This document shows positions 3,773 to 25,054 of a stretch of DNA of 25,054 nucleotides, piece by piece. The stretch covers positions 1 to 25,054 of IMG/VR virus record IMGVR_UViG_3300037070_004316; one strand, given 5' to 3'. The position numbers and the translations under genes are program-made. How positions within the stretch are numbered: position 1 is the stretch's first letter; the number at the start of each line of letters is the position of its first letter. The stretch comes from a virus. The notes under the pieces were generated by a model, which searched no databases, was not told the origin of the DNA, and saw only the letters and a list, made by a program, of their open reading frames with translations.

Positions 3773-6412
3773 CTATCGTTTCAACGCCCGGTACAGCACG
3801 TCCCCGATGAGCTGCCCGCCCGTCGCGTTGACGTGCGTGTTGTCCTCAAACAACGTCGCCGAGTAGGCACTGATAGAGGCTCTGAGGTCAATTGCCGCGC
3901 AGTTCGCCGTCGTCATGCTCAACTCTTTGGCCCGCTTTGAGAACTCGCTGATCTCGTACAGGTGCGTCGTGGCAAACTCTGGCGGGGAGATGATCAGCAG
4001 ATCCACGCCCGAGAGGGCAGTACGAACGTCGCTCATCAGCGTGATCATGTTCGTCTTGTAGACCGCATCGCCGTCGCTTGAGCCTACCGAGTCATTGATG
4101 CCCAGGAAGATACCGGTGAGATTGGGAGCGAGAGCGGCGAACGCGGCACGCCACACCGCCCCGCTGGTGACGGCGGTCCAGCTACTGACCTTGCTCCCCG
4201 AATAGCCCAGCTTGTGGAACACCGTGCCATTCGTCACCGAGTAGTCGTACAGCTCGAAGCCAAGCAGCGTGATGGTGCCGCTGACCACTTCCACCTCGAG
4301 CGTGTGGCTGCCGACCGCGATGGTCGTGAGTGCTGTCCGGGCAAAGGCCGTTGCGCCCGCCGTATCGACATCGGTCCAGCTCCCGGCGTCGAGCCGCCAG
4401 CGCAGATGCCCGCCACCTTGCAGATAGTGGATGGAGCCATCGGTGCCAGTAAAGACGATGGTGTACTTCGCCCCTGCTGAACTGGATGCTGCTTCGCATA
4501 GGTCCGCGCCGCGCCCGGTCAACACAGTTTCGGTCCAGGTGCCCGACCGGTTGACCGACGTGAGCTTGGGCGGGAAGCCATAGGCGATCCCTGCGTTGTA
4601 GTTGGTTGCATAGGTCGAGACAAAGCCCGGCCCGGCGTCGGCGCTCTCGGCCACCAGGCGCGCCGCCAGTGGCTTGAGGTAGCGATACGCGCCGTTGGTG
4701 TAGCTGTCCCCGATGAACGCGATGCGGGCGCGAACGCCACTTGCAGCCTGCGCGAGCTGGCTCTGGACGGTGCGCCAGCCCTGCAAGCTCGCGATATTCA
4801 ACTCCGGGTTGAGTGCCTGATGGCGCATCCACCACGCGCCGGGCTCGTAGCGTTGGGCATAGCCCCGACTGAGCGCGTCTATGCGTGAGATGTACGCCCC
4901 TGGCACGGCGTACATCTCGTACAGGTCAAGCGTCCCGGTTCCGACCGAGCGCGTAACGTACACATCGACTGCTACACTTGCCGCTGGTATGGTGACGCCT
5001 GTCTTCGTCAGCCATTGGACGCTCGCGTCTCCTGCGGTGGATGTCCCTGCTGCCGCGCCCGTCGAGCCTCCTGCTGCGTTGCGGAAGGCATAGTTGATCG
5101 CGTAGGTGTTGCCAACAGCGATACGGACCAGCGCCCCAAAACTCACCACGTCGCCCACGCTCCAGCCCAACTCGCTCAGGTGGTAGCGCCGCCCGTAGGT
5201 TGGCGTTATGCGGTACGTCGTCAGTCCGAACGGGTTACTCGTGTCGTTCTCGATCACCGCTGCGCTGCCACCGCCCTGTTGCCAGCGCAGGATCGTCGAG
5301 CCGTCCTGGTAGCGTGCGGAGGGAGCAAAGGAGCGGTTGAACGGGTCTTCGGCTGGCCGAACAGTGCGCGTCAAGCGTGACGGCAAGTCATCATCCGTCC
5401 CCACCGCTGCCTGGATCTGGTCGAGTGCCAGCGTGCCCGCGGGGATCGCCGCTGCCGCGTTGCCCGGACTGTGCTTCGCGCCCTTGACCAGGCTGATCTC
5501 GGTCATCACAACGATACCCGTCCCACTGGCGAGATACATGTAGGCATCCACAGCGGCGGCGCTGGCATTGAGCACGTAGCCTTCGAGGTAAAAGGTCTGC
5601 TCGACGCCCGTTCCGACCGCCGTACTCCCTGCGCCGGCCGTCCCTGCGAGCGTGGTCCCGTCACTGGTGCGACCTGCGAGTGCGACCGCGACCGTCGCCG
5701 TCGCAGGCACAATCGCCTTCATGCGAACCGAGACAGTATCGCCGCCGATGAAGCCGGCTTCGCTGCCCCATATCTTGTGGCCTTCCTGCCCCGTCGCAGG
5801 CGTGCCCAGCGTGAAGGTCATCTGACCGCCTGAGATCGTCGCGCCCGATGTGCCGTGCGAGAAGCGCCGTTTGCCGTAGACCGCCGCAGTGCTGACCGTC
5901 GTGAAGCGGGCAAACCGTGGGTCGGCGTTCAGCTCACCGCTCGGTACAGCGGCCGGTCCCAGCTTGGCAGCTGTGACGTTGGCGTCAAGGATCTTTGCGG
6001 TGGTGACGTTGGCGTCGATCAACTCAGCTGTGCCGACCGATGCGTCGGCCAGTTTCGCCTGGGTCACGGCATCAGTCGCAATCTTTGCAGCGCTGATGCC
6101 GCTATCCTTGACCCGCAGGGCGTCACTACTGATCTCAACGGTCGTCCCGTCCACGCCAACCGAGAGCACATTACTGGCGAGTGCCAGGCCGGCGCCCGCG
6201 ATCGAACTCTTGAGTGTGCCGTCGGTGTCCAGGCTGCCGCCAACATGCGCGACGACCTCGTTGATCGCCTCGACCAGCGACACGCTCGGCGTGAGCGTCA
6301 GGTCGCCACGATCGCCGATCGCCGCGTCGAGCTGGCCGTCCGGCGTCGTGACATGCGCGGCGATCGCTGCGGTATTGTCGGCAGCAAGGTCGGTATGGTT
6401 GTCTGTGCTCAT
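3773..6412 (-). CDS. Tail fibre with C-terminal SGNH/GDSL hydrolase domain
   Basis: The protein has 879 residues. Residues 1-150 are tail-fibre-like, with short imperfect repeats (ISAAKIATDAV, KLADASVGTAEL, VTTAKILDANV). Residues 165-310 and 355-505 read as two beta-sandwich, carbohydrate-binding-like modules. From about 560 to the end is an SGNH hydrolase: FIGDS with nucleophile S570, a block II-like GYSG near 735-739, GIND at 771-774 and DNTH with D857 and H860. An inserted beta domain at about 625-725 sits inside the hydrolase. Such enzymes remove acetyl or other ester groups from surface glycans, so this is the likely receptor-binding protein. Its ATG overlaps the distal tail stop (ATGA). 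Confidence 0.88.
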   Translation of the reverse strand: MSTDNHTDLAADNTAAIAAHVTTPDGQLDAAIGDRGDLTLTPSVSLVEAINEVVAHVGGSLDTDGTLKSSIAGAGLALASNVLSVGVDGTTVEISSDALRVKDSGISAAKIATDAVTQAKLADASVGTAELIDANVTTAKILDANVTAAKLGPAAVPSGELNADPRFARFTTVSTAAVYGKRRFSHGTSGATISGGQMTFTLGTPATGQEGHKIWGSEAGFIGGDTVSVRMKAIVPATATVAVALAGRTSDGTTLAGTAGAGSTAVGTGVEQTFYLEGYVLNASAAAVDAYMYLASGTGIVVMTEISLVKGAKHSPGNAAAAIPAGTLALDQIQAAVGTDDDLPSRLTRTVRPAEDPFNRSFAPSARYQDGSTILRWQQGGGSAAVIENDTSNPFGLTTYRITPTYGRRYHLSELGWSVGDVVSFGALVRIAVGNTYAINYAFRNAAGGSTGAAAGTSTAGDASVQWLTKTGVTIPAASVAVDVYVTRSVGTGTLDLYEMYAVPGAYISRIDALSRGYAQRYEPGAWWMRHQALNPELNIASLQGWRTVQSQLAQAASGVRARIAFIGDSYTNGAYRYLKPLAARLVAESADAGPGFVSTYATNYNAGIAYGFPPKLTSVNRSGTWTETVLTGRGADLCEAASSSAGAKYTIVFTGTDGSIHYLQGGGHLRWRLDAGSWTDVDTAGATAFARTALTTIAVGSHTLEVEVVSGTITLLGFELYDYSVTNGTVFHKLGYSGSKVSSWTAVTSGAVWRAAFAALAPNLTGIFLGINDSVGSSDGDAVYKTNMITLMSDVRTALSGVDLLIISPPEFATTHLYEISEFSKRAKELSMTTANCAAIDLRASISAYSATLFEDNTHVNATGGQLIGDVLYRALKR

Positions 6413-20688: not shown

Positions 20689-20729
20689 CACAGAGACGCC
20701 GCTGGTGGGGGGCCAGCGGCGTCTCTGTG
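20689..20729. terminator. 17-bp perfect stem-loop terminator
   Basis: CACAGAGACGCCGCTGG (20689-20705) pairs perfectly with 20713-20729 around the loop TGGGGGG. It lies 15 bases after the stop of the minus-strand gene at 20745, and on that strand it is followed by CGTTTG, a short T run. It can also stop plus-strand transcripts from the promoter candidate at 20651. Confidence 0.8.
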
Positions 20730-21627: not shown

Positions 21628-21638
21628 ACTCTTGTCAA
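21610..21638 (-). promoter_or_regulatory. Sigma-70 promoter of the SWIM operon
   Basis: TTGACA (21638 down to 21633) and TATTAT (21615 down to 21610) are 17 bases apart on the minus strand. This is a near-consensus promoter in an AT-rich patch, about 95 bases ahead of the SWIM start. Confidence 0.85.
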
Positions 21639-21667
21639 GGATTTATTTGGCAACGGTTGGAAAATGG

Positions 21668-21696
21668 TTGACACGCACAAGTGTTCGGTGTATATT
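21668..21696 (+). promoter_or_regulatory. Sigma-70 promoter of the excisionase-like gene
   Basis: TTGACA (21668-21673) and TATATT (21691-21696) are 17 bases apart. It is divergent from the SWIM promoter, with only 29 bases between the two -35 elements. A second TTGACAC at 21699-21705 follows and could be part of an operator. Confidence 0.85.
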
Positions 21697-21721
21697 CGTT
21701 GACACTGGAAAGGGGACAACG

Positions 21722-21964
21722 GTGCTACAAGAACTTGATGACATGCTTACCGGCGCCGATGCTGCCCGCGAGCTGGGCGTGACGCGGCAGCGCGTGACAG
21801 AGCTCGCGCAGGCAGGGCGCATCGGCCGGCAGGTTGCCGGCCGCTATTGGTTCTTTACGCGGGAAGAAATCGAAGCGTACAAGAATGACCGAAAGGTTGG
21901 ACGCCCAAAAAGCGAGATCGAACTGACGATGAAACACGAAGCGCCTGAGTATCGAGCCGCGTAG
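21722..21964 (+). CDS. Excisionase-like MerR/HTH_17 protein
   Basis: The protein has 80 residues from GTG at 21722, behind AAAGGGG. Residues 8-60 fit the HTH_17 excisionase domain: LTGADAARELGVTRQRVTELA, GRIGRQVAGRYWFFTREEIEAY. The basic tail after that (KNDRKVGRP) is common in recombination directionality factors. Such proteins bend DNA at the attachment site to favour excision and often repress transcription as well. It is leaderless of other genes, with its own promoter and terminator. A role as the lysogeny regulator instead of, or besides, excisionase is possible. Confidence 0.82.
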   Translation: MLQELDDMLTGADAARELGVTRQRVTELAQAGRIGRQVAGRYWFFTREEIEAYKNDRKVGRPKSEIELTMKHEAPEYRAA

Positions 21965-21989
21965 GCTTCTTGATACTCAGGCGCTTCGT
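21936..21989 (+). terminator. Long terminator hairpin overlapping the excisionase gene end
   Basis: ACGAAGCGCCTGAGTATC (21936-21953) pairs perfectly, 18 of 18, with 21972-21989. The inner 18 bases contain a further five-pair stem (GAGCC with GGCTT). The left arm encodes the last codons of the excisionase-like protein and the loop holds its stop codon. Confidence 0.8.
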
Positions 21990-22099: not shown

Positions 22100-22155
22100 T
22101 GGTGGGCGATACTGGACTCGAACCAGTGACCTCTTCCGTGTGAAGGAAGCGCTCT
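22100..22155 (-). other. Probable attP (3' half of tRNA-Val)
   Basis: The segment from the anticodon arm to CCA is intact and lies 45 bases or more from the end of the tyrosine integrase gene. Integrases of this class commonly cross over in the anticodon or T arm of a tRNA gene and rebuild its 3' end. The exact core needs the host junctions. Confidence 0.55.
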
Positions 22156-22176
22156 AACCAACTGACCTTATAGCCC
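22100..22176 (-). tRNA. tRNA-Val (CAC), possibly the attP-borne copy
   Basis: On the minus strand the sequence folds as a tRNA: anticodon stem CTTCC/GGAAG with loop TTCACAC (anticodon CAC, valine), perfect T stem ACTGG/CCAGT with loop TTCGAGT, D loop AGTTGGTTA and encoded CCA. The 3' half is perfect. The 5' half has three odd positions: a U-C mismatch at pair 5-68, A instead of U at position 8 and a G-G mismatch at 11-24. That asymmetry suggests a site kept for recombination more than for decoding. Confidence 0.75.
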
Positions 22177-22200: not shown

Positions 22201-23169
22201 TCACGCAGCCAGCAGCCCGGCATCGTCGAGCAGCGACAGCACCGGACTGGCCTGGCTATGCAGTCGAGACAGCATCGCCTCATCGAGCTGGGCATACAGC
22301 TCGGTGGTCGAGAGCTGGCTATGGCGCATGAACTGTTTGATGGCCAGGGTCGGCACGCCGGCCGCAAGCCACGTGCGCGCCGCGTAGTGTCGAAAGGCGT
22401 GCAGGCAGCGCGGTGGGAGGTCCACGCCGGCGCGCTGGCCCAGGCGCTCGATAATCGAGCGGAGTGAGCGCGGTGAGCACGGCCGCCCGTTCCAATCGCG
22501 GAACACCGCCTCGTGGTCGCGGCGATCGCCGATGAGCGCGACCAGGATGTCCCGCGTCACGTCGCTAAAGAAGACCACGCCCTCGTGGCCACCCTTCCCC
22601 TCAACGACACACTCAGACGCCCGCACGTTCGCACAGGTGAGCCGACAGACCTCGCCGGCGCGCATCCCCGTGTCGGCCAGCAGCAGCACGAGTGCTTGCG
22701 CCTGGAGCGCTTCACGCTCCAGTGGGCCGCCCGGCGTCCATTGCAGGCGCGCGGTCTTGCGGTCGCGCTTCCAGTTCGGTGGGGTTGTGACGCTGAGTAG
22801 CCGCACGATGTCGACGTCGCTGTAGGCCGGCTGTCGCCGCTTGCGCACGGGCGGCGCCTGGACGCGGCCGCGCCCGGCGAACGGATCGCGCTGCAGCAGC
22901 TCCTCGTCGACCAACCAGCGACAGAAGGTCTTGAGCATCCGGTAATGGCCGCGCACTGTCTGATCGCTCAGATCGCGTGCTCGCAACATGCGGAAGTAAT
23001 TGCCGATCGTCGCCGGCGAGAGGTCCACAACAGGCTGCTGGGCCTGCCAGCGCGTGAACATCCCGAGGCAATGCCGATAGAGGTTGAGACTGGCCGGCCG
23101 GCAGGTGATTTCACGGGTAGCCATGAATGACTCGACCAATTCGGTCGAGGTCGGTAAAGGATAGGGCAA
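22201..23169 (-). CDS. int: Tyrosine recombinase/integrase
   Basis: The protein has 322 residues. An N-terminal core-binding SAM-like domain covers about residues 8-95 (a tetra-helical pattern ending QTVRGHYRMLKTFCRWLVDEELL). The catalytic domain has R170 (TGMRAGEVCRL), K192 (GKGGHEG), H257 and R260 (HAFRH), H283 (MRHSQLSTTE) and nucleophile Y292. All key residues are present. There is an insert of about 25 residues before the catalytic core (NWKRDRKTARLQWTPGGP). The start is TTG at 23169 with GGAG upstream; ATG at 23124 is an alternative. The gene ends 24 bases from the tRNA-Val. Confidence 0.92.
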   Translation of the reverse strand: MPYPLPTSTELVESFMATREITCRPASLNLYRHCLGMFTRWQAQQPVVDLSPATIGNYFRMLRARDLSDQTVRGHYRMLKTFCRWLVDEELLQRDPFAGRGRVQAPPVRKRRQPAYSDVDIVRLLSVTTPPNWKRDRKTARLQWTPGGPLEREALQAQALVLLLADTGMRAGEVCRLTCANVRASECVVEGKGGHEGVVFFSDVTRDILVALIGDRRDHEAVFRDWNGRPCSPRSLRSIIERLGQRAGVDLPPRCLHAFRHYAARTWLAAGVPTLAIKQFMRHSQLSTTELYAQLDEAMLSRLHSQASPVLSLLDDAGLLAA

Positions 23170-23244
23170 GACAGTACTCCATTCCTAGAGTCTGTCGCGT
23201 GCCAGGTGTATCAGAAAACGTAGGGCGTGAAGGCGGTCCATCGG

Positions 23245-23262
23245 GAGTGATTCGCAGTCCCG
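23245..23262 (+). repeat. Conserved loop repeat, copy 1
   Basis: GAGTGATTCGCAGTCCCG occurs here and at 23350-23367, 105 bases apart. Here it forms the loop of the stem AGGCGGTCCATCGG / CCGGTGGATCGCCT. Confidence 0.85.
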
Positions 23263-23349
23263 GCCGGTGGATCGCCTGGTCGCTCTTGTATACGGGGTTG
23301 TCGCTCGTTTGGTTGCAGGAGGTGTAGAGACGTGAACACCCCGAGCCAC

Positions 23350-23367
23350 GAGTGATTCGCAGTCCCG
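23350..23367 (+). repeat. Conserved loop repeat, copy 2
   Basis: The second copy lies in the loop of a different, perfect 11-bp stem, CCCGAGCCACG / CGTGGCTCGGG. The stems of the two copies share little sequence while the loops are identical. Confidence 0.85.
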
Positions 23368-23511
23368 CGTGGCTCGGGATATCCACCCTCCCGACTTTTG
23401 CCCCCGGGAGGATGTTCGATTGTACTACCGATGGGCGCTCGTGCGCCGACATAAAAGCAGCCGGCTCGGGGGGCAAAACCCCGAGCCGGCTTAGATTCTG
23501 AGTACCAAACT

Positions 23512-24453
23512 ATGACAACATTATATACCACCAATGCTCGTACAAATCCAGCCCCCAATGGTCCACATGGACCAGCCCAACCAAAAACCACCAACCGCCA
23601 GGCGTTGGCCTTCCGTGCCGGCGAGCAGGCGCTGGCCCATACCAGCCACGGCGTCGGATTGCTCCTGTACTACAAGCAGCTCGTTGCTCGCGCAGGACGG
23701 AACTCGTCAAGCTGTCTCAGCCAGCCCGAGCTGGCAGCACAAGCCGGCGTCACTGTGCGGACCATCCGGCGCTATGACGATCACCTTGTAGACGCCGGCC
23801 TGATCTGGCTCAAGAAGGAAGGCCACAATTACCGACGCACCATCACGGCCTACGAGCCTGTGCCGCCGGTTCAGGCATCGATCGACGACACCCCCGAAAC
23901 ACGCCCCCCGGAAGTCGAAGTCCGTGCCGTCGAGCCGAATCCCTTTTTTTGTTGCTCGCAATGCGGACAGGTCGCGCCCCCCGATGCGGATCGATCTGGC
24001 GCCCCCCATCCTTTAACAGGATCAAGGGTTAATCAAGACGAGGCATTAAGGCCAGGCGGCGAATTAGTTACGCAGACAGAGACTGTCGAGTTACTACGCG
24101 CCGAAAAGGTCCATCCGGCGACGGTGCGCGCCTTCGCGCATCTCGATCCGGCCTATGTTCGGGAGCAGATCGACGCCGCCTGGCGCTGCGGGCGCGGCCG
24201 CGAGATGCCTAACTTTTTGGTTGGCTGTTTGCGAACTGGCGGTGTCTACGGTTCGTCGTCGGGAGGTGGCAGCCGGCCGGCGCCTGCCCCGCCGGCGTTC
24301 CCTCTGGGTACTGATGACTGTTCGAAGTATGAAAACGCGGCCGCGCTGTATGCGATGCGATGTCTCACCTGCTGGGGAGTGATCTTGTCGGAATGGGAGG
24401 GCCATTGTCCGCGTTGCGAGCCGGAATTGTTCGAGCCGGTTGGAGGTCAGTGA
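23512..24453 (+). CDS. Winged-helix replication initiator-like protein
   Basis: The protein has 313 residues. A winged helix covers residues 68-112 (LSQPELAAQAGVTVRTIRRYDDHLVDAGLIWLKK), as in phage and plasmid replication proteins of the lambda O / HTH_36 type. A CxxC (C148, C151) follows at the start of an acidic linker. Residues 190-243 (VELLRAEKVHPATVRAFAHLDPAYVREQIDAAWRCGRG, FLVGCLRTGG) match the C-terminal module of such proteins that contacts the host helicase machinery. The C terminus has a zinc ribbon (C284/C287 and C299/C302). The ATG has no strong Shine-Dalgarno. It heads the early operon and probably recruits host replication proteins, as no other replication gene is present. Confidence 0.75.
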   Translation: MTTLYTTNARTNPAPNGPHGPAQPKTTNRQALAFRAGEQALAHTSHGVGLLLYYKQLVARAGRNSSSCLSQPELAAQAGVTVRTIRRYDDHLVDAGLIWLKKEGHNYRRTITAYEPVPPVQASIDDTPETRPPEVEVRAVEPNPFFCCSQCGQVAPPDADRSGAPHPLTGSRVNQDEALRPGGELVTQTETVELLRAEKVHPATVRAFAHLDPAYVREQIDAAWRCGRGREMPNFLVGCLRTGGVYGSSSGGGSRPAPAPPAFPLGTDDCSKYENAAALYAMRCLTCWGVILSEWEGHCPRCEPELFEPVGGQ

Positions 24454-24882: not shown

Positions 24883-25054
24883 TCACGCCGCGCGTCTCCT
24901 ACATCACGCGCATCTTTGACGAGATGGTACGGATCAGCCGGCGGAATGGCAGCCAGCGCCGGGCACCACTCAAAGGCGGCGCGGAGCTCGTGGTCAGAGT
25001 CGCCGACGGTACGGTCACGCTCACCATCAAGCGGCCCAACACGCCGGTCGGCAA
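24879..25054 (+). CDS. Hypothetical early protein, 5' part of joint-spanning gene
   Basis: This is the N-terminal 58 codons of the protein that continues at the left end of the window. The ATG overlaps the zinc-ribbon stop (ATGA). The N terminus (MITPRVSYITRIFDEMVRISRRNGSQRR) is amphipathic and basic, consistent with nucleic acid contact, but no family is recognised. Continuation in phase across the repeat is the main proof that the genome is circular. Confidence 0.7.
   Translation, partial: MITPRVSYITRIFDEMVRISRRNGSQRRAPLKGGAELVVRVADGTVTLTIKRPNTPVG
24929..25054. repeat. Terminal direct repeat, right copy (contig joint)
   Basis: Identical to 4-129. Removing one copy leaves a circle of about 24,925 bp. 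Confidence 0.9.

Follow-up and report, generated by a model that had tools for sequence, protein, structure and literature searches.

A conserved five-hairpin element between integrase and replication genes of uncultivated phages, a candidate leader RNA with twin loops

What is the role of two hairpins that carry the same loop on stems having nothing in common? This question is raised by a 25-kb IMG/VR virus record (IMGVR_UViG_3300037070_004316), analysed here over 25,054 nucleotides and called the window in the following, in which both hairpins sit inside a 342-nt intergenic gap (23170-23511). The gap separates a divergently oriented tyrosine integrase gene from a gene for a helix-turn-helix protein resembling replication initiators (Table 1). 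The ends of the window share an overlap of about 120 nt: positions 1-127 and 24930-25054 hold ~120 near-identical bases, of which the first few differ, and an exact-match test is blind to such an overlap. This pattern fits a circular genome or a terminal direct repeat, and the genome is probably circular.

The twin-loop hairpins

The 17-nt loop AGTGATTCGCAGTCCCG is present as an exact copy in both hairpins, as the original prediction had it, and no third match was found in the window even at three mismatches; in dinucleotide shuffles it occurred on average 0.10 times, and two matches were reached in 0 of 100. Both stems form as predicted, 23231-23244 pairing with 23264-23277 in hairpin 1 (P1) and 23340-23350 with 23368-23378 in hairpin 2 (P2), and their arms are indeed unrelated in sequence. 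P2 encloses exactly the 17-nt loop, and the true loop of P1 is 19 nt long (G + 17-mer + G). The fold z-scores of hairpins 1 and 2 are -3.9 and -4.0 on the + strand, and -2.1 and -4.5 on the - strand. Hairpins with a perfect stem of at least 10 bp and a loop of at most 21 nt number five genome-wide, and include hairpin 2 and the hairpin at 23459-23491, here P5. The motif common to the twins reaches further 5' than had been noticed, with a CGTGA about 14 nt ahead of the loop.

Table 1. Positions of the structured element, its parts and its neighbours in the window.
Feature	Position	Strand	Description or basis
tRNA-Val (CAC), complete gene	22100-22176	-	directly past integrase 3' end
Tyrosine integrase, divergent neighbour	22201..23169	-	Pfam PF00589 (Phage_integrase) 5.7e-23; PHROG integrase
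Whole conserved non-coding structured element	23195..23495	best guess +	four-lineage alignment, covariance model, pair counts
P1, hairpin 1, twin loop copy 1	23231..23277	+	14 bp with two G-U; three pairs changed on both sides
Twin loop copy 1, AGTGATTCGCAGTCCCG	23246..23262	+	AGTGATNYGCRGTCCCG in L034 and L042; AGTAAGGGCAAGTCCCG in L062
Invariant linker TTGTCGCTCGT	23298..23308	+	four-lineage alignment
P2, hairpin 2, twin loop copy 2	23340..23378	+	perfect 11 bp; three pairs changed on both sides in L062
Twin loop copy 2, AGTGATTCGCAGTCCCG	23351..23367	+	exact copy
P3, CCTCCCG/CGGGAGG hairpin, loop holding TTTTGCCC (23396-23403)	23387..23411	+	100% of cells paired, one both-side change
P4, GGCGC/GCGCC hairpin	23434..23447	+	alignment pair counts
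P5, 13-bp hairpin, loop GGCAAAA (23472-23478)	23459..23491	+	three both-side changes; loop complements P3 loop
Helix-turn-helix, replication-initiator-like protein, downstream of element	23512..24453	+	Pfam HTH_36 0.00024 (weak, under the curated cut-off); relatives in L034 and L062
Candidate -10 box TATAAT, promoter facing element	23520..23525	-	consensus match only

A larger element kept in four phage lineages

With degenerate DNA patterns, the integrase and the protein encoded downstream as queries, IMG/VR yielded three other uncultivated phage lineages that carry the hairpin pair: L034 (IMGVR_UViG_3300043313_001297), L042 (3300027513_000056) with its near-identical L043 (3300009609_000054), and L062 (3300005184_000001), the most divergent. 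A further contig, L055, has a terminase identical to that of the window and is probably the same phage. The absence of loop and paired flanks from relatives, or the loss of pairing among aligned copies, would have spoken against a conserved structure; the pair recurs in these three lineages, and compensatory changes were found instead of lost pairing. The two hairpins of the original prediction are both real, but they form only part of an element of about 300 nt with five hairpins, three of which (P3, P4 and P5) had gone unnoticed.

Alignment and covariation concern four distinct sequences only (window, L034, L042 and L062). In these, 96.9% of the pair cells of the named structure are paired, with 12 both-side base-pair changes, a number that shuffles reached in 0 of 500 (average 4.4), and in a control in which the partners were slid by 1-3 columns the both-side changes fell to 0-1. 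The consensus fold has a z-score of -8.0 on the + strand and -8.6 on the - strand in a column-shuffle test. Across the four sequences the P3 consensus is CCTCC[C/T]G...C[G/A]GGAGG, and on the + strand a pairing of TCGCTCGT in the linker with ACGAGTGA in P2 is conceivable, without covariation. The covariance model gives the four lineages 306-344 bits, its members matching by construction, and the best match outside the family has 14.6 bits over 477 kb searched, including many contigs with chance loop matches. A protein-coding reading of the region is ruled out by stops and 1-nt indels in the aligned sequences. A leader peptide (GTG...GAG TGA, in P1/P2; mini-ORFs in the window and L034) was also discarded, being out of frame in P1 of L042 and without an ATG, GTG or TTG start in P2 of L062.

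L062 shows the same alteration in its two loop copies, from GC[AG]GTCCCG to GCAAGTCCCG, and the CGTGA ahead of both loops has become CGGGAGCA. Such a concerted change of copies on different stems, seen in one lineage, would be expected if the twin loops share one trans-acting partner. The rest of the phage has no complement of the twin loop at up to three mismatches, and a pseudoknot between tail and loop in P1/P2 was rejected, its energies being no better than those of shuffles.

The surroundings of the element vary more than the element itself. The original prediction had pointed to the protein encoded at 23512 as a possible partner, and a replication-initiator-like gene does stand there; this gene, however, is not constant, being swapped in L042 while the element stays. 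The window, L034 and L062 share the downstream protein (58% and 48% identity), whereas in L042/L043 the downstream gene encodes a PHROG_270 replication initiation protein unrelated to that of the window, for which no PHROG match was obtained. The integrases of the window and L034 are only 33% identical. In every lineage the element lies upstream of a helix-turn-helix or replication-initiator gene, even where that gene is unrelated, and an integrase always adjoins it; the element therefore appears as a unit of its own, since it is kept while the flanking genes change.

Such autonomy would suit a stand-alone non-coding RNA of the phage, acting in trans or oligomerising through the loops of P3 and P5 in the manner of ROOL and GOLLD rather than serving as a leader: the unit is compact, it persists as both neighbours change, and complementary loops could pair between molecules. 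We consider this improbable, as the element always directly precedes a replication-type gene, no conserved terminator was found at either of its ends, and neither ROOL and GOLLD nor any other Rfam family resembles it.

Beyond these lineages the searches were unproductive. No copy was found in a prophage or a Chloroflexota genome, where the original prediction had proposed to look, with the patterns used on 84,980 species representatives; a strict P3 motif scan and a Rep alignment scan of genome contigs gave no match, and the P3 motif scan revealed no further lineages. A 15-mer of the loop matched 31 IMG/VR contigs without the pair of paired flanks, and these matches were set aside as chance or unrelated, whereas the degenerate loop GAGTGATNNGCNGTCCCG matched 18 contigs, with the tandem pair in three only, the single-copy matches being unrelated (at most 14.6 bits with the model). 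At the DNA level, cultured phages and plasmids returned nothing useful and no record matching the element; at the thresholds used, no relative of the Rep and capsid proteins was found among cultured phages, and identity to the terminase was only 25-31% in the best-ranked records.

Complementary loops, strand and the leader-RNA model

The P3 loop TTTTGCCC is complementary to the P5 loop GGGCAAAA. An unbiased + strand search for helices that form in each of the four sequences found this 8-bp match beside P5 and P3 themselves, and ranked it as the second-longest co-varying helix. In L062 the two loops are changed jointly, to TTTTCCCC and GGGGAAAA. Furthermore, GGGCAAAA occurs once per strand in the 25-kb window, precisely at the P3 and P5 loops; the loop 8-mer likewise occurs once per strand, at the same two loops, in the contigs of the L042 lineage, as does GGGGAAAA in the L062 stretch examined, and L034 has one extra copy on the reverse strand. 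The predicted P3-P5 kissing pair is conserved and, on a single co-change, co-varying.

In the window only 20 nt separate P5 from the start codon of the replication gene. The promoter of this gene should therefore lie upstream of the element or within it, and a + strand transcript would be expected to run through P5 at the least. We tentatively favour, at somewhat less than an even chance, the reading of the element as a new structured control element that is most likely a + strand 5' leader RNA of ~300 nt of the early/replication operon, its twin loops being bound in trans and the P3-P5 contact acting as a gate. P1 and P2, by offering the same 17-nt loop, would provide two sites for one trans-acting partner, which may be a phage protein, a host protein or an antisense RNA. 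The kissing contact (TTTTGCC/GGCAAAA), about 20 nt ahead of the start codon and coupled to the occupancy of P1 and P2, would gate the replication genes at the level of translation or of read-through, and would thereby help to decide between replication and lysogeny. We infer transcription, strand, binding partner and gating alike from sequence comparison.

The leader reading is favoured because the architecture is kept in four lineages with covariation and co-changing loops next to a replication-type gene, because the element is non-coding and its consensus fold has a z-score of about -8, and because the loop 8-mers occur once each in the window and the wobbles of P1 and P4 are G-U on the + strand (six cells among the one-sided changes of P1 and one in P4). 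It is weakened because the - strand folds equally well, because all three one-sided changes of P2 are G-U only on the - strand, because -10-like matches lie on that strand, and because no convincing conserved promoter was seen on the + strand.

The same observations define the alternative in which the element works from the - strand, as the 5' leader of the integrase mRNA, with a promoter just past P5, or as an antisense RNA directed at the beginning of the replication gene, with the same hairpins serving to control integration or replication. In L034, L042 and L062 an extended -10-like match, TGGTANNAT, stands just past P5, at the place of the TATAAT of the window; P2 is better paired on this strand (19 continuous pairs in the window), the fold z-score is as low there as given above, and an inverted repeat covers the ribosome-binding site of the integrase in the window and L062. 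However, the wobbles of P1 and P4 fit the + strand only, integrases of different types accompany the same element, and no -35 box is conserved across lineages; we regard this alternative as unlikely, if not strongly so. As for the repeats themselves, that of the window (23170-23196) reads GACAGACTC...GAGTACTGTC, and that of L062 (~4950-4975) is CCCACA...TGTGGG, unrelated in sequence. P5 was also considered as an intrinsic terminator and rejected: a - strand match with a T-rich tail exists in the window and L042 only, and a + strand match in L042 only.

Taken over the whole element, the wobble-type changes (7 cells G-T and 4 cells A-C on the + strand) have no strand preference, as would be expected of a strand-independent DNA structure. 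A folded or cruciform DNA site, serving as replication origin, for primase loading or for protein assembly, would also agree with the neighbouring replication-initiator genes and with the AT-rich stretch after P5. Against it stand the lack of an iteron array, with only two loop copies spaced by 105 nt; a flanking gene without an HUH Rep match (helix-turn-helix only in Pfam, nothing in PHROGs); an initiator gene that varies while the element remains the same; and the co-change of the kissing loops, which has no obvious role in DNA. Such a site therefore seems to us quite unlikely. A packaging (cos/pac) site was judged unlikely, the terminase gene lying 5 kb off and the terminase-like protein of L062 being different.

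If the element is a leader RNA, as we favour, it would constitute a compact RNA switch, open to direct testing and placed at the choice of a temperate phage between integrating and replicating, that is kept while the genes on either side are swapped. Compensatory variants are provided by nature in the four sequences, one of them in the kissing pair, and allow simple mutant/rescue tests of the structure. A bolder proposal, which we hold as possible but rather doubtful, is that the element represents a hitherto undescribed class of regulatory RNA in phages: a trans partner would be sensed by twin loops on unrelated stems, the replication gene would be switched by a kissing pair, and the whole would form an exchangeable int-rep module of uncultivated temperate phages.

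Known systems and module exchange

Neither Rfam nor the collections of cultured phages contain the structured element that these uncultivated phages carry. That the loop belongs to no named RNA family was borne out with Rfam 15, in which the best scores, 9.5 bits for the window and 17.7 bits for L062, are far under the gathering scores. For repZ of ColIb-P9, Asano and Mizobuchi reportedly described in 1998 loop-loop pairing near the start codon in a non-coding leader. The leaders of IncI, IncB and IncL plasmids resemble the element in being non-coding, in preceding a replication-initiator gene and in pairing loop to loop at a short distance from the start codon, and the predicted pairing next to the rep start, with P5 20 nt before it, is what an IncI-type leader switch calls for. 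Part of the literature referenced in PMC10724649 describes the rep leaders of IncI-type plasmids as pseudoknot-controlled. Unlike them, the element has a full-loop kissing pair of 7-8 bp and twin-loop hairpins, and no conserved leader peptide. By analogy, we judge that it may work like these leaders, without claiming membership.

The P4 CI and P1 C4 immunity RNAs involve a leader near int and the replication operon, with repeated loop sequences. The element shares this position and the repeated loops; unlike them, it has no loop complement elsewhere in the phage.

Among phage RNAs, the put RNA of HK022, of ~70 nt with two stem-loops, stands at the head of early transcription, downstream of an early promoter (PMC9378689). 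Antitermination by put works in cis on RNA polymerase and needs no protein factor. A cis-acting put-like antitermination RNA, whose twin hairpins would engage RNA polymerase, is suggested by the presence here, as in HK022, of two similar structured units heading an early operon. We give it a low probability: put RNAs are much as just described in size and build, whereas the twin hairpins of the element are 105 nt apart within five hairpins; there is no sequence or Rfam match, and the P3-P5 kissing pair would be left unexplained. ROOL and GOLLD are structured phage RNAs with covarying kissing loops and a function of unknown kind; many GOLLD exceed 800 nt, and both are often found near tRNA islands (PMC12286853). 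They resemble the element as phage-encoded structures with covarying kissing loops, and differ from it in that the element is ~300 nt long, has no Rfam match and is accompanied by a single tRNA past int, in the window only. HK022 put and ROOL/GOLLD are the nearest phage RNAs by theme, mismatched by structure or Rfam.

Comparison of 22201-23169 with L034:2-877 shows that the integrases, for all their divergence, have their first codons (MPYPxxPTST) and the upstream element in common, which suggests that the integrase was swapped by recombination at the conserved edge of the element. The tRNA-Val (CAC) gene is missing from the stretches examined in the relatives and may be an attachment site or a cargo tRNA. 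Upstream of the tRNA and integrase lies an HTH_17/excisionase-like gene (21632-21964, + strand), and between this gene and the tRNA an inverted repeat (21936-21989) whose 18-bp arms match perfectly across an 18-nt spacer. The hairpin at 20689-20729, with a perfect stem of 17 bp and a loop of 7 nt, is possibly a terminator.
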